From positions 62,001-126,000 of the forward strand of contig CACDUI010000002.1 in the NCBI GenBank assembly GCA_902555985.1: a stretch of DNA of 64,000 bases. The letters are read 5' to 3'. The position numbers and the translations under genes were made by a program. Of the stretch, positions 24,861 to 32,977 are shown in pieces. This DNA is from an uncultured Candidatus Actinomarina sp. Lineage in GTDB: Bacteria; Actinomycetota; Acidimicrobiia; Actinomarinales; Actinomarinaceae. The notes under the pieces are model-generated. The model searched no databases and was not told the origin of the DNA. It worked only from the letters and a program-made list of their open reading frames with translations. The first letter of the stretch is position 1. The number at the start of each line of letters is the position of its first letter.

Positions 24861-25832
24861 ATGAATACTATTGCTGTCGATGCAATGGGTGGCGATTCCG
24901 CTCCTGTAGAAGTAGTCAAAGGTGCAATTAAAGCAAAAGAAGATGGCGTAAATGTTGTTTTATGTGGTGATGAGAATTTAATAAAACCATATTTAGGTTC
25001 TTCAGAAATTCCTATATATCACTATCCTCAGGTTATTTCAATGGATGAAGATCCGCTTAAAGCCATTAGGGCAAAAAAAGAATCATCGATTATTGGCTGT
25101 ATGCAGCTGTTAAAAGAAAAAAAAGTTGAAGCAGTATTTTCTGCAGGCTCTACCGGAGCAACATTAATAAGTGCAATAACTATTTTAGGCAAACAAAAAG
25201 GAGTAATCAGGCCAGCTATTGCTTCTGTATTACCAACTATTAATGGGAGTGTCATTTTGCTTGATTCAGGAGCAAGCCTTGATGTCAAACCAAAAGTACT
25301 GTATCAATTTGCTGTAATAGGTTCAAAGCTTGCTGAAGTTCTACTCGACATAGATGCACCTAGGGTTGGCCTTTTAAATAATGGCGAAGAAGAATCAAAG
25401 GGAAGAGATTTAGAAAAGTCTGCTTATAAACTACTATCTTCAAGCAATTTAAATTTTATTGGAAACGTTGAAGGAAGAGATTTTGCAAATGAAAAAGTTG
25501 ATGTTTTTGTTACAGATGGTTTTACAGGAAATGTAGTTTTAAAAACTCTTGAAGGTACTGCCAGGCTCCAACAAAAACTAATTTCTGATTCTTTAAATAG
25601 AAATCTTTTAAAACCTTTGCTTCCCATAGTAAAGAATGCTTTTAAGCCCGTTAAAGATAAGTTAAATCCAGATAAAACTAATGCATCATATTTGCTTGGT
25701 GTTGATGGCTTAGTAACAATTGGTCATGGTTCGTCAAAGCAGGAAGCAATTAAAAATGGAATAAAGTACACAAGCAGTTCAATACAAAAAGATTTTATTG
25801 GAAAGTTTTCCGAGACATTAAAGGAATTATGA
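24861..25832 (+). CDS. plsX: phosphate acyltransferase
   Basis: 323 residues. PlsX turns acyl-ACP into acyl-phosphate for phospholipid synthesis. The N-terminus MNTIAVDAMGGDSAPVEVV, the segment FSAGSTGATLISA and VDVFVTDGFTGNVVLKTLEG are family signatures. It starts 9 nt after rpmF and overlaps rnc by 4 nt. The partner PlsY is not in this window. Confidence 0.96.
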   Translation: MNTIAVDAMGGDSAPVEVVKGAIKAKEDGVNVVLCGDENLIKPYLGSSEIPIYHYPQVISMDEDPLKAIRAKKESSIIGCMQLLKEKKVEAVFSAGSTGATLISAITILGKQKGVIRPAIASVLPTINGSVILLDSGASLDVKPKVLYQFAVIGSKLAEVLLDIDAPRVGLLNNGEEESKGRDLEKSAYKLLSSSNLNFIGNVEGRDFANEKVDVFVTDGFTGNVVLKTLEGTARLQQKLISDSLNRNLLKPLLPIVKNAFKPVKDKLNPDKTNASYLLGVDGLVTIGHGSSKQEAIKNGIKYTSSSIQKDFIGKFSETLKEL

Positions 25833-26506
25833 ATAACCTTTCTGATTTAGAAAAAAGTATTGGATATAAATTTAAAGATAAGAAGTATTTAAAAATAGCT
25901 TTGACACATAAGTCATATTTAGACGAATATCCAGAGTTGCATTCAAATCAAAGATACGAATTTTTTGGTGATGCAATATTAGATTTTGATCTTACTGAAT
26001 ACTTGTTTGAAAAATATCCTGATTTAGATGAAGGAAGCTTAACAAAAATTAGATCAAGCGCAGTAAACCAGTTCTATTTAGTAAAGCTAGGTAGAAAAAT
26101 AAATATTGGTCAGTATTTATATTTGAGTAAAGCCGAAGAATCTACCGGAGGTAGAGAAAAAGACTCAATTTTAGAAGATTCACTAGAAGCTCTTATTGCA
26201 GCACTATATTTCGACGGTGGATTAAAAGCTGTTAATGATTTTGTATCTAAATTTATATATCCAAGTATTAAAGAATTATCACTAAACCCAGGTCAAAAAG
26301 ATTATAAAACTCGACTTCAAGAATTTTTTGCTAAACAGGGACTTAAGGTAAATTATGAAGATGTTTCAGAAGGACCAGATCATGATAAAAACTTTTCAAC
26401 GAATGTCCTATTAGATGAAAAGATTATTGGCAGTGGGGTAGGAAAATCAAAAAAATCAGCCCAACAATCAGCTGCTAAAGATGCATTAAATATATTAGAT
26501 GCCTGA
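25829..26506 (+). CDS. rnc: ribonuclease III
   Basis: 225 residues. The catalytic RNase III domain holds RYEFFGDAILDFDLTEYLF and DSILEDSLEALIAALYFDGG with the metal-binding acidic residues; the C-terminal dsRNA-binding domain (residues 150-225) includes GSGVGKSKKSAQQSAAKDAL. It cleaves rRNA precursors and structured mRNA; a strong hairpin before pnp (63071-63128) is a natural candidate substrate. It overlaps plsX by 4 nt and mutM by 8 nt. Confidence 0.96.
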   Translation: MNNLSDLEKSIGYKFKDKKYLKIALTHKSYLDEYPELHSNQRYEFFGDAILDFDLTEYLFEKYPDLDEGSLTKIRSSAVNQFYLVKLGRKINIGQYLYLSKAEESTGGREKDSILEDSLEALIAALYFDGGLKAVNDFVSKFIYPSIKELSLNPGQKDYKTRLQEFFAKQGLKVNYEDVSEGPDHDKNFSTNVLLDEKIIGSGVGKSKKSAQQSAAKDALNILDA

Positions 26507-27293
26507 GTTACCAGAAGTTGAATCTGTACGAAAAGTACTTGAAAAATCTTTAATAAATCAAAAAATAAAAAAATATAACATAACCGATAAAAGAATAAAT
26601 AGATTTAACAACAAAAATCCAAAAATTAATGGTTTACTATGTGACATCAAAAGAAAAGGTAAGGTTCTTCAATTTAAATTTGATAATATTTCCTTTTTAT
26701 TTCATCTAGGTATGAGTGGAAGGCTTGCTCTAAACAGTGCTAAAAATAAACATACTCATGGAGTATTTGTTTTTGAACGAGATATATTGATTTTTGATGA
26801 TATTCGAAAATTTGGATTTATAAAAATATTGAATAATGATGAAGTATTTAATCATTTTGAAAAACTCGGTCCTGATTCGCTCAACTTAACTCAATCAAAC
26901 AAAATTCAAATAATGCAAAAAGCAAGTAGAAGTTCTGTTGGAGTAAAAAAATTTTTGTTAAACCAAAAAAATATAAGTGGCTTGGGAAATATTTATGTAA
27001 ATGAGATATTATTTTTATCCAAGATCAATCCTTTTTTATCTACATTTAGATTAAATACCGATAGTTGGAGTACTATTTTTTCAAATACAAGAAAAATTCT
27101 TAAAAAAGCTATAAAGAATAATGGAACAACATTAAGTGATATGACATACTACCTACCCTTAGGTGACTATGGCACTCATCAGAATAATTTATTAGTTTAT
27201 GGAAGTAACATTTGTTTTTTTTGTTCAGGGAAAATTGATAAACTGTATATAGATTCAAGAGCTACATATATGTGTAATAAATGTCAGAGATAA
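26499..27293 (+). CDS. mutM: formamidopyrimidine-DNA glycosylase
   Basis: 264 residues. Fpg/MutM excises oxidised purines. The catalytic N-terminus PELPEVESV (Pro2, Glu3), the helix-two-turn-helix with ISGLGNIYVNEILF and a zinc finger made of CFFC and CNKC at the C-terminus are complete. Numerous Asn and Lys residues reflect the AT-rich genome. It overlaps rnc by 8 nt and the asparaginase-like gene by 13 nt. Confidence 0.95.
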   Translation: MPELPEVESVRKVLEKSLINQKIKKYNITDKRINRFNNKNPKINGLLCDIKRKGKVLQFKFDNISFLFHLGMSGRLALNSAKNKHTHGVFVFERDILIFDDIRKFGFIKILNNDEVFNHFEKLGPDSLNLTQSNKIQIMQKASRSSVGVKKFLLNQKNISGLGNIYVNEILFLSKINPFLSTFRLNTDSWSTIFSNTRKILKKAIKNNGTTLSDMTYYLPLGDYGTHQNNLLVYGSNICFFCSGKIDKLYIDSRATYMCNKCQR

Positions 27294-28216
27294 ATAATTT
27301 AACGGTCAATATCTATAGGGATGGATTTGTAGAATCTTCTCATGAAGTTTGTGTTTATTCAAATTCAAAAATATCTAATGATTATTTTTTTCCGCGTTCG
27401 GCAGTTAAGCCAATGCAAGTCATGCCATTATTAATTGAAGCTTCAAAACAAAATGTTGAATTTAATTTAAAAGAGATAGCATTATTTGCATCTTCTCACT
27501 CTGGGCAAAGAGAACACACAGATTTCATAGATAGTGTTGCAAATAAATTTTTTATTAATTTAGAAAATTTAGAATGCGGTCCGCAAAGACCCTTTCATGA
27601 AGAAACTGCAGATTTACTTGTTAGACAAGGTAAAAATTTTACAAATCTACATAATAACTGTTCTGGAAAGCATTTGTCGATGCTTATTTTTTCAAAATTA
27701 TTAGGAGAAGATCAAAATGAATATTGTCAACTGTCTCACAAAACCCAAGAAGTTATTAAAAATTATTTCATTGAAATATTTGATACGAAAGATATAGGGT
27801 TTGGTATTGATGGATGTGGACTGCCTGCTATTAAGTTAAAAGTTTCGAATTTTTTAAATTCAATACAAAAAATGCAAGATAGTAATAATTCTAAAATTTG
27901 GAATAATGTGTTCAAAGCATATATGCAATATCCGATAATAATTGGGGGAGAACAACGGACAGATACAAATATAATTATCAATTCAAAACAAGACCTAATG
28001 GCCAAATCAGGAGCAGAGGGTGTTTTATTTGTAAGTAATAATAACGAATCTTTAGTATTTAATTGTAAGGATGGTAGCAAAAGGGGTGTTGATTTAGCAG
28101 CTACCTCTTATTTACATAAAATAGGTTGGATATCTAAAGAACCTTATAAATATATTGAAAGTACTTTAATTTTTAATAAACAAAATATTCGTGCTGTAGA
28201 AATAGAAGTGGTATAA
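27281..28216 (+). CDS. asparaginase (type II-like, bacterial asparaginase_II family)
   Basis: 311 residues of the Asparaginase_II family, distinct from the classical AnsA/AnsB fold. Visible landmarks are FPRSAVKPMQVMPLL near residue 35, LFASSHSGQREHTDF near 68 and NNCSGKHLSMLIFS near 125, then GIDGCGLPAIKL and KSGAEGVLFV. Hydrolysis of asparagine is the family annotation and is not proven widely. It overlaps mutM by 13 nt and is followed by a hairpin before smc. Its place inside the mutM-smc run is unusual. Confidence 0.85.
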   Translation: MSEINNLTVNIYRDGFVESSHEVCVYSNSKISNDYFFPRSAVKPMQVMPLLIEASKQNVEFNLKEIALFASSHSGQREHTDFIDSVANKFFINLENLECGPQRPFHEETADLLVRQGKNFTNLHNNCSGKHLSMLIFSKLLGEDQNEYCQLSHKTQEVIKNYFIEIFDTKDIGFGIDGCGLPAIKLKVSNFLNSIQKMQDSNNSKIWNNVFKAYMQYPIIIGGEQRTDTNIIINSKQDLMAKSGAEGVLFVSNNNESLVFNCKDGSKRGVDLAATSYLHKIGWISKEPYKYIESTLIFNKQNIRAVEIEVV

Positions 28217-28282: not shown

Positions 28283-30928
28283 ATGTATTTAAAATCATTA
28301 GATATTAATGGGTTCAAGTCTTTTGCTGAAAAGACTAATATTCAATTATCAGAAGAAGTTAATGTAATTGTTGGGCCTAATGGCTCAGGGAAATCTAACG
28401 TAGTTGATGCTATATCTTGGGTACTTGGAACACAAAGCCCAGCTTCATTAAGAACTAATAAAATGGAAGATGTAATCTTTGCAGGAACTGAAAAGTTAGC
28501 TGAAAAAGGTTTTGCTGAAGTATATTTAAATTTTGAAGTAGATGAAAAAATATTTAATGGAAATTCTGAAATTTCTATAGGAAGAAAACTTTTCAGAGAT
28601 GGAACCTCTGAATACTTTATGAATGGTCTAAATTGTAGGCTATTAGATATACAGGAATTTTTAAGTGATGTTGGAATTGGTAAGCAGCAGCACATCATCA
28701 TTTCACAAGGCCAAATTGCAGAGATTCTTAATTCAAAACCTGAAGACCACAGACTTACTATTGAAGAGGCTTCAGGGATTCTTCCATTGAGATCAAAAAA
28801 AGAAAGATCTTTGAAAAGAATTGAGTCTGGTGATAAAGAAATTAAAAGGGCAAAAGATGTCTTGCGTGAAATTAAAAAACAACTAAAACCTCTTCAAGAG
28901 CAAGCAGAGCAGGCAAAGCTTCATGAAGACACCACTAACCAACTAAAAGAAAATAATGTAAAACTTAATGTTCTTTTATACAAAAATATTCAACAAGCTA
29001 TAAATGCACTAGATGAAACTGATAAGAGGATTACTTTTGAAATTAGTAATACTGAGTCAAAAATTAAATCCTTAAAAGAAGAAAAGTACAAATTTAATAA
29101 CAATCTTGGCGATGGAATTTCAATAGGTTCAACATTTAAAGACTACTCTTCAAAAATTAATAATATTACTGAGCAACTCAGATCTATCGCTCAGGTCGCC
29201 AATGAAAGAAAAGATAATCTTGATAGAGAAGATTTTAAAAATTTAGAACAAGTTAATAAAATTACAAAAAAAATTGAACAAAATACAAATCAAATAAGTT
29301 CTTTATCTACCCAACTAGTTTCTAAACAACATACATTAAAGAATTTACAGTCCACTTATGATGATCTCAAAAATAATCTTGAATCTGTTATAAAAAAATC
29401 ATCAGCTTCTATTGAAGTTAATGAAGCTTTGCTTGAAACTGAAATAAAAACATTACAAAAAAATATAAATGAAGCATCTGGTAGATTAAATACTCTTAGT
29501 GAAGATTTGCGTAAGTGGCAAAACGATGTAAGTAAGTCAGAAGGATTACTTATAGAATTAAATAATGATTTATATGAAGCAAATATTTTTCTTGAATCTA
29601 AAAATAAATACGTTGAGTTCAACAATGGGATACTAGATAGAGAAATATTATCCAAAAATAATAATATCGATAAATTAAATCAACATAAAGATTCAATAAA
29701 AAATCAATTAATAGAAAAGCAGGAGTTACTTTCTGGTATTAATGAAAATGAATCATTTAAGTTAGATATAAACAATCAAAAAAATAACTTGGAAAATCAA
29801 ATAAGTGAGATTGAAAAACAAATATCTGCGGTATCTAATCAATTAGTTTCTTCACAAGAAAGAATTAAAACTTTAACAGAACAAAATATTGAATTTAAAA
29901 ATGAAAAGGAAAATATAGCATCAAATAAGAATACAAATTCTAAAGATGAATTGTCTAATCTTGTTGGTGTGGTAAAAACCTATATTAACTTTACTAATAA
30001 AGCTTCTGAATTATTAGATAGTAAATCTGATGAATTCGATTCAAAGTACGGCAATACAAATAAAAAAATTCAAAGTATTGATAATGAAATAGAAGAATTA
30101 AGTAAAAATTACTATGAATACAAAGACTTGAAAACTTCTAATGTAATAAAATTATCTGAAAATCAAAATCAACTTTCCAATCATTATTCAACTTTAAAAA
30201 ATATATATGGACTTAGTGAAGAATGGATTAAAAATTATTCTATTGAAGGCTTAAATCAAAATGAATTACAGAATCAAATTAAATTAAATGAGTCTGAACT
30301 TGAGAAAATTGGAACAGTTAATTATCTAGCTAGAGATGATTTTGAGTCGTTGAATGAAAGATTCAATGAAATCACTAAAAATATTGATGATCTTAAATTA
30401 GCTAAGATTGAATTAGTTTCACACATTAAAGAAATTGAAAATGAGATTGAATTTAGAATTCAATCTTCATTCAATTCAATATCTGTTCACTTCTCAGAAA
30501 TATTTGAAACATTATTTCCCGGAGGAAAGGGTTCTTTATCATTTACAGATAAGGAGAATATTTTAGAGACAGGAATAGATATTTCAGTTCAACCAAAAGG
30601 CAAAAAAGTTAAAAAATTAAGCTTATTGTCAGGTGGAGAGAGATCTTTAGCTGCAATAGCATTCCTTTTTTCAATATTTAAATCATTTCCTAGTCCTTTT
30701 TATATTCTTGACGAAGTTGAAGCTGCATTAGATGATGCTAATTTACATAGAATGATTAATTTACTTAAACATGTAAAAAATGATGCTCAATATATTATTG
30801 TTACACACCAACAACAAACTATGCATGCTGGAGATGTACTCTATGGTGTTACTATGGAACCTGGCTCAGGCTCCAGAGTATTTATAAAAACAAAAGCAGA
30901 TTTTGAAGCGTTAATTAAAAAATCATGA
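28283..30928 (+). CDS. smc: chromosome segregation protein SMC, short form without recognisable hinge
   Basis: 881 residues, against roughly 1,150-1,200 for typical bacterial SMC. The head is complete: Walker A VGPNGSGKSNVVDA at 31-39, the Q-loop region IISQGQIAEIL, the ABC signature LLSGGERSLAAIA at about 782 and Walker B FYILDEVEAALDDAN. Residues about 170-690 read as continuous coiled coil rich in Asn, Lys, Glu and Ser. I see no hinge domain (no glycine-rich GxxGxxxDL segment or GRATF-like motif) in the middle. It overlaps cdd by 4 nt. ftsY, which often follows smc, is absent. It could alternatively be another SMC-like family. Confidence 0.9.
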   Translation: MYLKSLDINGFKSFAEKTNIQLSEEVNVIVGPNGSGKSNVVDAISWVLGTQSPASLRTNKMEDVIFAGTEKLAEKGFAEVYLNFEVDEKIFNGNSEISIGRKLFRDGTSEYFMNGLNCRLLDIQEFLSDVGIGKQQHIIISQGQIAEILNSKPEDHRLTIEEASGILPLRSKKERSLKRIESGDKEIKRAKDVLREIKKQLKPLQEQAEQAKLHEDTTNQLKENNVKLNVLLYKNIQQAINALDETDKRITFEISNTESKIKSLKEEKYKFNNNLGDGISIGSTFKDYSSKINNITEQLRSIAQVANERKDNLDREDFKNLEQVNKITKKIEQNTNQISSLSTQLVSKQHTLKNLQSTYDDLKNNLESVIKKSSASIEVNEALLETEIKTLQKNINEASGRLNTLSEDLRKWQNDVSKSEGLLIELNNDLYEANIFLESKNKYVEFNNGILDREILSKNNNIDKLNQHKDSIKNQLIEKQELLSGINENESFKLDINNQKNNLENQISEIEKQISAVSNQLVSSQERIKTLTEQNIEFKNEKENIASNKNTNSKDELSNLVGVVKTYINFTNKASELLDSKSDEFDSKYGNTNKKIQSIDNEIEELSKNYYEYKDLKTSNVIKLSENQNQLSNHYSTLKNIYGLSEEWIKNYSIEGLNQNELQNQIKLNESELEKIGTVNYLARDDFESLNERFNEITKNIDDLKLAKIELVSHIKEIENEIEFRIQSSFNSISVHFSEIFETLFPGGKGSLSFTDKENILETGIDISVQPKGKKVKKLSLLSGGERSLAAIAFLFSIFKSFPSPFYILDEVEAALDDANLHRMINLLKHVKNDAQYIIVTHQQQTMHAGDVLYGVTMEPGSGSRVFIKTKADFEALIKKS

Positions 30929-31317
30929 ATGACCAAGAATTAGCAAATCTAGCTAGTGAAATAGCGAAGAAAGCTTACGCACCGTATTCAAACTTTAGAG
31001 TTGGAGCTGCTCTTATTACAGATTCTGGAAATATATATACTGGCTGTAATATTGAAAACGTTTCTTATCCGGCAACTGTCTGCGCTGAGGATGTTGCAGT
31101 TGTGAAAGCAATTTCAGAAGGCGAAACAAAGATTGATATTCTTGCTGTTTCATGCATAGATGCAATTGATGAACCCATTTTTCCTTGTGGCATATCTAGA
31201 CAACGTATGGCAGAATTTGGTGTTGAAGATGTGATTGTTGTTTATAAGGGTGATTTCAAAAAATATAAATTTGATGAAGTGCTTCCTTTTGATAATAAAA
31301 TAAAATTTAAAGATTAA
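30925..31317 (+). CDS. cdd: cytidine deaminase with altered zinc site
   Basis: 130 residues of the tetrameric cytidine deaminase family. The substrate segment YSNFRVGAALI and NIENVSYPATVCAED hold the zinc Cys53 and the proton-shuttle Glu55. The second motif reads FPCGISRQRM: Cys88 is present but the expected second Cys (PCGxCRQ) is Ser91 (TCT codon). One of three zinc ligands therefore appears lost or replaced. It overlaps smc and converges with etfA by 4 nt, and neighbours a nucleoside-salvage cluster, so the biological role is still likely cytidine/deoxycytidine salvage. Confidence 0.85.
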   Translation: MNDQELANLASEIAKKAYAPYSNFRVGAALITDSGNIYTGCNIENVSYPATVCAEDVAVVKAISEGETKIDILAVSCIDAIDEPIFPCGISRQRMAEFGVEDVIVVYKGDFKKYKFDEVLPFDNKIKFKD

Positions 31318-32231
31318 ATATTTTCATTAAGTTTTGGTATGACGCTTAGGGTATCACCAACTATACCCAGATCAGCTAACTGAAATATAGGTGCTTCCTC
31401 ATCTTTGTTAATTGCTATTACAAATTTTGAATCCTTCATTCCAACTTGATGTTGGGTTGCTCCAGATATACCACAAGCAATATAAATATCTGGCTTAACA
31501 GTCTTACCAGTTTGACCTACTTGCTGAGAGTAAGGCATCCATCCAGCGTCAACAATAGCTCTAGTTCCGCCAATTGCAGCATTTAGTTTGTTTGCTAATG
31601 TTTCAATCATTTCCAAATTTTCTTTTTCAACCATACCTCTACCAGCAGAAATCACCACTTTAGAATCTTCAAGCTGAGGACCTGTTTTTTCTTCAATATA
31701 GATATCAAAGACATCTAAATCAGTGTTTTCAACTTCAATAGTTTCATAATCCGAATTAACTTCAATTTCAACTGGATCAAACGCTTTTGGTCTAATTAAA
31801 AGTAGAGAATGATCTGAATTAATTTTTGCTTTATATAAACTTTCACCACCATTAATAGAGTTAATTGTAGAAATCTTTCCATCTTCTAAGTTAAAATCGA
31901 CAACATTAGAAACTGGACTACTGTTTAAATCCACAGAAATAAATGAAATTAAATCTCTGCACATATAAGTTGAAGAACCTAAAATGAGCTTGATATCTTC
32001 ATTTTTAATAATTTCAGAAATTTTAGAGGCAATTTTTGAAAAATTAAAAGAGCTGCTGGCCCTTTTAAGATATGTTTGCTTAACTTCATTTAATCCAATT
32101 GCAGGACTATCTTCGCTTCCGACAGTTATTAACTGGACATCTAATTCCATAGATTTAGCTTTACCTAATATCTCAAGTGTTCCTGAACTTAAATTTTTAT
32201 TTATAACTTCTCCAATAATTAATGTTTTCAT
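31314..32231 (-). CDS. etfA: electron transfer flavoprotein subunit alpha
   Basis: 305 residues. The C-terminal FAD domain is clear: VVISAGRGMVEKENLEMI, the segment GWMPYSQQVGQTGKTVKPDIY and CGISGATQHQVGM, with the final AINKDEEAPIFQLADLGIVG. ETF accepts electrons from acyl-CoA dehydrogenases; the candidate donor is encoded at 5070-6275. It overlaps etfB by 4 nt and is the last gene of the minus-strand run. ETF-quinone oxidoreductase is not in the window. Confidence 0.95.
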   Translation of the reverse strand: MKTLIIGEVINKNLSSGTLEILGKAKSMELDVQLITVGSEDSPAIGLNEVKQTYLKRASSSFNFSKIASKISEIIKNEDIKLILGSSTYMCRDLISFISVDLNSSPVSNVVDFNLEDGKISTINSINGGESLYKAKINSDHSLLLIRPKAFDPVEIEVNSDYETIEVENTDLDVFDIYIEEKTGPQLEDSKVVISAGRGMVEKENLEMIETLANKLNAAIGGTRAIVDAGWMPYSQQVGQTGKTVKPDIYIACGISGATQHQVGMKDSKFVIAINKDEEAPIFQLADLGIVGDTLSVIPKLNENI

Positions 32232-32977
32232 ATGATTTTTAATTCCTTTAACTTATTAACTATTTCTTGATAGGCTTCACCCTCATCAATAATTTTTTCA
32301 CCGGACTTAGAACTTTCTACTGACTCAACATTTAAAAATTCAAGATTTTGATTAGTAACAATATTTAACTCACCCAATGGTATTTGCTCTATTGACTTAG
32401 ATTTAGCTGCCATAATATCTTTAAAATTTGGATATCTTGGTTCTACCCCTCCTGCTGTAACAGAAATCACACATTTATCTGGCATGTTTACTTTTTCTGA
32501 ACCTTCACCAGTTTGTCTAGTTAATGTAATATTGTCACCAGTTTCGATAGCTTTGACATATGATATACATTCAACATCTAGGAATCGAGAAACTTGCTGA
32601 GGAACAGTCCCTGAGTATCCATCAGTAGATTCTGTTCCAAAAATTACAATATCCGCTGTTAATGATTTTGCTAATTCACTAAGAACATTAGCGGTCATTA
32701 GAGAATTTGAACCTTTTAATGAGTCATCATCGACATAGATAGCCTTATCAGCTCCCATTTGTAAAGCTTGTTGGAGCCCTTTTTGTGTTCCTGAAGGTCC
32801 CATAGATATTATTGTCACTTCTGCGTCAAATTTCTCTTTTAATTGTAGAGCAACTTCAATTCCATATCTGTCAGTATCATCTAATACTTGTTCTTCAGGT
32901 CGATTTATTATTCCATCGGAATACGTAACTTCATTAGCTGGATCAGGAATTTGCTTAGCGCATACTGCAATTTTCAT
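32228..32977 (-). CDS. etfB: electron transfer flavoprotein subunit beta
   Basis: 249 residues. MKIAVCAKQIPDPANEV is the standard N-terminus; the AMP-binding segment ADIVIFGTESTDGYSGTVPQ and the recognition loop RYPNFKDIMAAKSKSIE are intact. The latter (with the Leu/Lys region) is the contact for acyl-CoA dehydrogenases. It follows punA by 22 nt and overlaps etfA by 4 nt. Confidence 0.95.
   Translation of the reverse strand: MKIAVCAKQIPDPANEVTYSDGIINRPEEQVLDDTDRYGIEVALQLKEKFDAEVTIISMGPSGTQKGLQQALQMGADKAIYVDDDSLKGSNSLMTANVLSELAKSLTADIVIFGTESTDGYSGTVPQQVSRFLDVECISYVKAIETGDNITLTRQTGEGSEKVNMPDKCVISVTAGGVEPRYPNFKDIMAAKSKSIEQIPLGELNIVTNQNLEFLNVESVESSKSGEKIIDEGEAYQEIVNKLKELKII

Follow-up and report, generated by a model that had tools for sequence, protein, structure and literature searches.

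The window analysed here, a stretch of 64,000 nucleotides from an uncultured Candidatus Actinomarina sp., carries on its forward strand an smc gene that runs from an ATG start at 28283 to a stop at 30928 and encodes an SMC protein of 881 amino acids, very likely without a hinge. Upstream on the same strand lie rnc, encoding RNase III (25829..26506), as well as mutM/fpg (26499..27293) and an L-asparaginase II-like gene (27281..28216). Downstream, the cytidine deaminase gene cdd (30925..31317, forward strand) overlaps the smc stop by four bases and is followed on the reverse strand by etfA (31314..32231) and etfB (32228..32977). Much of this neighbourhood is shared with UBA5794, the sister order of Actinomarinales (PMC12008989), in which the smc gene encodes a hinged protein of 1146-1148 amino acids. 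The window reads rnc-mutM-asparaginase-smc-cdd-etfA-etfB, whereas the UBA5794 order is rnc-smc-ftsY-cdd with etfA and etfB encoded on the opposite strand, so that rnc lies upstream of smc in both and cdd downstream, in UBA5794 after ftsY. The ftsY gene adjoins smc in UBA5794 and not in the window, where mutM and the asparaginase-like gene are found upstream of smc instead.

The ATPase head of the protein is split into two halves, as listed here with forward-strand coordinates. The N-terminal half (amino acids ~1-165, 28283..28777; boundary set by the B. subtilis spacing) is near-invariant throughout the genus and contains the Walker A motif GPNGSGKS (amino acids 31-38, 28373..28396), which is invariant in 35/35 sequences. 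The C-terminal half (amino acids ~706-881, 30398..30925) was delimited by the SMC_N match and the family alignment; the latter also places the ABC signature LLSGGER (amino acids 781-787, 30623..30643) and the Walker B motif with D-loop PFYILDEVEAALDD (amino acids 805-818, 30695..30736), both likewise invariant in the 35 sequences. Pfam SMC_N covers residues 2-859. Against the bacterial Smc model TIGR02168 (SMC_prok_B) the protein scores 652 bits, exceeding the equivalog cut-off of 567, while the cut-offs of the related models are not reached: RecN (48.9 bits, cut-off 407.9), ASRP (86 bits, cut-off 300) and the best Rad50 models (64-76 bits, cut-offs of at least 700). The best PDB matches of the predicted structure, identified with Foldseek, are condensin, Smc5/6 and SMC head structures. 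By descent, heads and partners the protein is a genuine orthologous bacterial Smc, in which the textbook hinge architecture is absent; that it homodimerises, entraps DNA and extrudes loops is inferred. A search of its own genome with SMC_N did not find a second SMC, the remaining matches being weaker, ABC- or RecF-like and in frames of at most 593 amino acids. This search included no MksB-specific models, and the genome is ~91% complete.

The usual partners of bacterial Smc are present in the same genome. The scpA and scpB genes are adjacent to each other (G000:C3:146007-147063), ParB is encoded as well, and an exact parS site, TGTTTCACGTGAAACA, is located ~0.9 kb from parB. An exact site also occurs near parB in another genome of the genus (G016); the exact copies of the 16-base parS consensus near parB in two Actinomarina genomes lie at L257:8924-8939 and L258:11479-11494. 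The presence of ScpA, ScpB, ParB and parS is shown in this way; a condensin function of the Actinomarina SMC is inferred. The ScpA of Actinomarina (L149:2888-3586; L260-L266) is without the N-terminal GPFDLLL motif of its relatives in the class and retains a LLASSLFELKAKRMLP-type helix. A tie between hinge loss and loss of this ScpA motif was considered and is not general, as the match of ScpA from Marinimicrobia extends over almost all of the profile.

Several observations show that the hinge is missing. The Pfam model SMC_hinge (PF06470) has no match in the protein even at E<=10, and neither does it match anywhere in the six-frame translation of its genome. This search works, because the same procedure gives matches in 10/14 control genomes. 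None of the 35 Actinomarina genomes (the own genome plus the 34 sampled, G001-G034) matches PF06470 anywhere, whereas such a match exists in 22/24 of the remaining class genomes, usually within an SMC frame of 1098-1257 amino acids. The two exceptions are G048, which has no SMC match, and G046, whose SMC is long and probably contains a diverged hinge. In the latter protein (L234:808-4155, 1115 amino acids), the probable hinge region is not recognised by PF06470; G046 yields a ScpB match and no ScpA match. Since this hinge escapes the model, a Pfam negative alone is weak evidence. The spacing between the head motifs provides a second measure. The distance from the Walker A lysine to the signature serine is 746 residues without exception in the full-length Actinomarina SMCs measured; the complete hinged proteins of Acidimicrobiia in the same comparison have 1011-1074, with 1016 in UBA5794. 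Profile alignment to the hinged SMCs of the class yields the landmark pairs Q313~T316 and Q524~T799, between which 211 residues remain in Actinomarina compared to 483 in the hinged protein. Outside both landmarks, the arms align with little difference in length. The ~270 residues missing relative to the UBA5794 SMC correspond to the hinge (~160) plus roughly 50-55 residues per arm, a division that depends on the hinge borders chosen.

The predicted structure agrees with this. AlphaFold2, run on the 35 family sequences for a single chain, yields a model (mean pLDDT 72.5, pTM 0.32) that is helical between residues 167 and 744, interrupted by short loops only, without a globular domain in the middle of the protein. 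The helices are fairly confident (pLDDT mostly 75-90), but the overall arrangement is not. The N-terminal arm (amino acids 167-433, 28781..29581, forward strand) has short breaks at 273-280 and 377, and the C-terminal arm (amino acids 439-705, 29597..30397, forward strand) has breaks near 488, 547, 583-595 and 642-658. Between them, at the expected site of the hinge, the model places a turn of five residues (amino acids 434-438, 29582..29596, forward strand), hereafter the apex. Helix breaks are approximately symmetric about residue 436 (272-281 versus 582-596; 376-378 versus 487-490), as expected for a hairpin. Because this turn coincides with the arithmetic midpoint between the heads (residue 433), the protein is predicted to form a long coiled-coil hairpin with a bare tip, with arms of ~270 residues by the B. 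subtilis borders. Near the apex, W412 and D415 on the N-terminal helix (29516..29527, forward strand; W412 in 32/35 sequences, D415 in 35/35) lie opposite R453 and E454 on the C-terminal helix (29639..29644, forward strand; 34/35 and 35/35) if the hairpin is centred at ~433.5. In the model, these residues would face one another at a distance of ~20 residues from the tip. Two hydrophobic doublets, 422-423 and 450-451, are found at matching distances from the turn. The apex was also examined for an excess of hydrophobic residues, which might mark a dimer interface, and has none.

The architecture is constant within the genus. The closest matches with a name come from SAGs and MAGs of uncultured Candidatus Actinomarina, with identities from 84% downward. 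An SMC match is present in all 34 sampled genomes, and 30 of them contain a full-length open frame of 881-912 amino acids (counted stop to stop). The remaining genomes have a match that is incomplete, divided between contigs or broken by one stop. Alignment of the 35 sequences requires no internal gaps, with identities down to 51%. The gene is under purifying selection, as dN/dS is 0.13-0.14 overall. It is lowest in the heads (0.02-0.04), rises to ~0.11-0.28 along the arms and reaches 0.38-0.54 near the apex, which is the fastest-evolving stretch of the protein. This rate, together with the lack of a hydrophobic excess, means that the sequence gives no sign of a strong tip-to-tip interface. 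The idea that arms free of insertions and deletions are a hallmark of hinge-less SMCs was dropped, as the spacing in hinged Firmicutes is nearly constant too (1056-1059), and a fixed arm length therefore does not set hinge-less SMCs apart. Conversely, the hinge-less family f19 of Actinomycetota varies in spacing.

A preliminary description, made from sequence alone, had read the gene as an 881-residue SMC with both head halves complete, a continuous coiled coil at about 170-690, no hinge and no CxxC hook. These claims held: the open reading frame is exact, the predicted helix reaches slightly further than proposed, the missing hinge is supported by Pfam, genome search, spacing and structure prediction, and CxxC is absent from the middle of every Actinomarina SMC. 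The only cysteine in the middle of the family proteins occurs near residue 669, in one subgroup only and far from the apex. Of the outcomes that would have overturned that description, a compact central domain is not predicted in the single chain, which turns instead, and an assembly deletion is refuted by the relatives in the genus, which have full-length frames of the same hinge-less architecture. The scpA and scpB genes, also named there, were found, and a second SMC was not found by SMC_N.

Hinge-less SMCs are not restricted to Actinomarina. Two Marinimicrobia genomes encode SMCs of the 867-residue type that have a CxxC motif, resembling the Rad50 zinc hook, exactly midway between the heads: CKYC in one, a MAG that surfaced in the same search as the nearest named records, at residues 428-431 (L116:8001-10601), and CKFC in the other (L155:1501-4101). 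Single-sequence AlphaFold2 of the hook-type protein is poor overall (pLDDT 42), but in its best-predicted part the CxxC falls at a turn (421-428) between two helices. In nine more Marinimicrobia, with genomes of 0.8-1.0 Mb, the SMC frames are shorter still (688-740 amino acids). The midpoint of these proteins carries a single CxxC in 2/9 (L187, L189), a CxxC-x9-CxxC in 3/9 (L191, L192, L195) and no cysteine in 4/9 (L188, L190, L193, L194), and on the tree the apex type switches at least four times inside this 700-residue group. None of the five Marinimicrobia SMCs scanned with Pfam (L116, L155 and the short-type L158, L170 and L181) matches SMC_hinge at E<=0.01; four of them (L116, L158, L170, L181) exceed the SMC_prok_B cut-off. 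ScpA and ParB were each detected in 10/11 of these genomes. A tree built from the heads alone contains three separate groups of short SMCs, each with support 100/100. A single origin of all three is rejected (p-AU 3.8e-5), whereas the rejection is weak for a single origin shared by both groups from Marinimicrobia (p-AU 0.032).

Additional cases occur in other Actinomycetota, of which 199 genomes were surveyed and most of the listed hinge-negative ones re-examined. Short, hinge-negative SMCs (L219-L235) were noted in the families f16, f19, f37, f41 and f44. Members of f16 have an SMC of ~1020 amino acids with a Walker A-signature spacing of 888 in 6/6 and genomes of 2.4-3.8 Mb; the SMC lengths are 736-790 in f19, ~885-900 in f37, 787 in f41 and 916 in f44. 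The head tree separates f16, f19+f37, f41 and f44 from Actinomarina. One protein (L253, family f49, spacing 941) was automatically labelled short, yet its hinge is present, so that f41 is nested with the hinged f49 and f29. Individual Pfam scans covered representatives of the families only, and these families are called hinge-less because of length and a Pfam negative, without structural models. Taken together, the head-domain trees indicate that the hinge was lost separately in Actinomarina, twice in Marinimicrobia, a split that is weakly supported, and in about four more Actinomycetota lineages, with the reservation just given for the latter.

These comparisons bear on the remaining claims of the preliminary description. 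Secondary reduction, proposed there, is supported as far as the hinge is concerned, because the smc of UBA5794, the nearest lineage with a hinge, shares the neighbourhood of the Actinomarina gene and the hinge-less proteins nest among hinged ones in the head trees. Genome streamlining, offered as its cause, is not sufficient and is not required either, because the f16 genomes are not small. The statement that the hinge is universal for dimerisation needs correction, as the hinge fold is dispensable and B. subtilis Smc works with a Rad50 zinc hook (PMC5344682). That dimerisation and DNA entry would have to work differently is still an inference.

The hinge normally joins two SMC molecules, and the question is what would take over this role. 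In the mechanism proposed here, the ancestor of the genus would have lost the entire hinge of ~160 residues together with roughly 50-55 residues from the hinge-proximal part of either arm. What remains would be an unbroken antiparallel coiled coil, ~270 residues in each arm, closed by a tight turn. The complex would act as an SMC-ScpAB, loaded by ParB at parS. ATP would unite the two heads, ScpA would bridge both SMC molecules, and side-by-side packing of the arms in a rod would replace the holding role of the hinge; the tips might in addition touch weakly near W412/D415-R453/E454. The rod dimer is favoured because the precedents of zinc-hook Smc and RecN show that the hinge fold is replaceable. 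Separately graded, the hinge-less architecture stands on much firmer ground than the proposal as a whole, a working hinge-free SMC-ScpAB held together by arms, engaged heads and kleisin, towards which the balance of evidence leans only slightly; dimerisation, its mode and the condensin function are inferred. DNA entry via an opened hinge, as usually drawn, cannot occur in this protein.

Two alternative explanations concern the absence itself. A diverged hinge might be present and overlooked by the Pfam model, as happens for the probable hinge of the 1115-residue SMC of G046 in the same class. However, the Actinomarina protein is ~270 residues shorter than that of UBA5794 and its middle is helical save for the five-residue turn, which leaves no room for a hidden domain, and this explanation is all but excluded. 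The same verdict applies to an assembly deletion, a frameshift or a decaying gene. Apart from the incompleteness of the own genome no evidence in favour of it was found, and it is contradicted by the 30 other genus members that, in independent SAGs and MAGs, keep full-length open frames with the same architecture, as well as by the gap-free alignment and purifying selection.

Other alternatives concern the way in which two molecules would be held together. A less likely possibility than the rod is that there is no apical dimerisation at all. ATP-engaged heads and bridging by ScpA would then be the sole links between monomers, and the complex would be a clamp with two open arms instead of a closed tripartite ring, with DNA held by clamping or in the kleisin compartment. 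The fast-evolving apex without extra hydrophobic surface or cysteine fits this reading, as does the lack of an apical cysteine motif in several hinge-less Marinimicrobia SMCs. Against it, W412, D415, R453 and E454 are almost invariant, and other hinge-less SMCs bear a CxxC or zinc-ribbon-like motif exactly at the apex, an indication that apical pairing may be worth keeping. Slightly less likely still is that a specific tip-to-tip helical homodimer substitutes for the hinge. RecN, whose dimer interface consists of apical helices (PMC4255302), is a precedent for such a helix-only dimer, and the conserved pairs W412/D415 and R453/E454 as well as the two hydrophobic doublets are equidistant from the turn; the rest of the tip, however, is poorly conserved and lacks a general hydrophobic excess. 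Finally, another protein could supply the apical link in trans, as a split hinge or an adaptor. In the absence of interaction data this cannot be excluded, but it is very unlikely, as PF06470 is absent from 35/35 genus genomes and there is no candidate beside smc or scpAB.

Returning to the favoured rod-like SMC-ScpAB, a bolder reading can be formulated. In this reading, bacteria that retain ScpAB and ParB would have shed the hinge on several occasions; in Marinimicrobia its place would have been refilled by zinc hooks or ribbons, while in Actinomarina there would be no replacement and the machine would work without a dedicated dimerisation domain, making the hinge an exchangeable accessory and not a defining gate. 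This remains tentative and is less likely than not. The hinge is generally regarded as a universal part of SMC proteins and as one candidate DNA entry gate. Its loss in several bacteria casts doubt on whether an SMC machine requires such a part. Hinge-less SMCs found in nature alongside ScpAB and ParB/parS are ready tests of which models for DNA entry and loop extrusion need a hinge, and the natural series of hinge, zinc hook, zinc ribbon and bare turn on comparable heads parallels a published engineering experiment. What appears to be new is an Smc by descent, heads and partners from which the defining domain is absent. No report of a natural hinge-less Smc was found in the open-access full texts searched, and SMC is not mentioned in the genome papers on Actinomarinales and UBA5794 (including PMC12008989). 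While the absence of the hinge is shown, novelty is not proven, because subscription journals and preprints were outside the scope of the search.

Among known systems, RecN is likewise SMC-like and hinge-free, but its coil is much shorter and its role is in repair. The archaeal ASRP, ClsN and Sph proteins (PMC9389158) share an SMC-related hairpin with a non-canonical tip; they differ in being archaeal and in that most of them have a zinc hook, and the Actinomarina SMC falls below the ASRP cut-off. Rad50/SbcC has a hinge-free coiled-coil hairpin in common with it, yet Rad50 has a CxxC hook and Mre11 as partner, whereas the Actinomarina protein has no CxxC and scores as an SMC. The closest resemblance is to bacterial Smc-ScpAB, with which it shares the head motifs, the TIGR02168 match, the scpAB, parB and parS partners and the antiparallel arms. 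Arm lengths show evolutionary modes at 238, 341 and 515 residues in prokaryotes and at 272 and 345 in eukaryotes (PMC5344682). The B. subtilis Smc has a hinge and wild-type arms of 344 residues, and hinged mini-Smc variants are functional again at 253-267 (PMC5344682). The hinge-free Actinomarina SMC, with arms of ~270 residues, is close to this working range. When the hinge of B. subtilis Smc is replaced by the Pyrococcus Rad50 zinc hook, growth is normal (PMC5344682; a further precedent from B. subtilis is PMC5526789). This engineered Smc(Zh) has its hinge removed, as in the Actinomarina SMC, but the latter contains no recognised module for dimerisation, neither a zinc hook nor another. The CxxC-bearing SMCs of Marinimicrobia (L116, L155, L187, L189), on the other hand, resemble natural versions of Smc(Zh).
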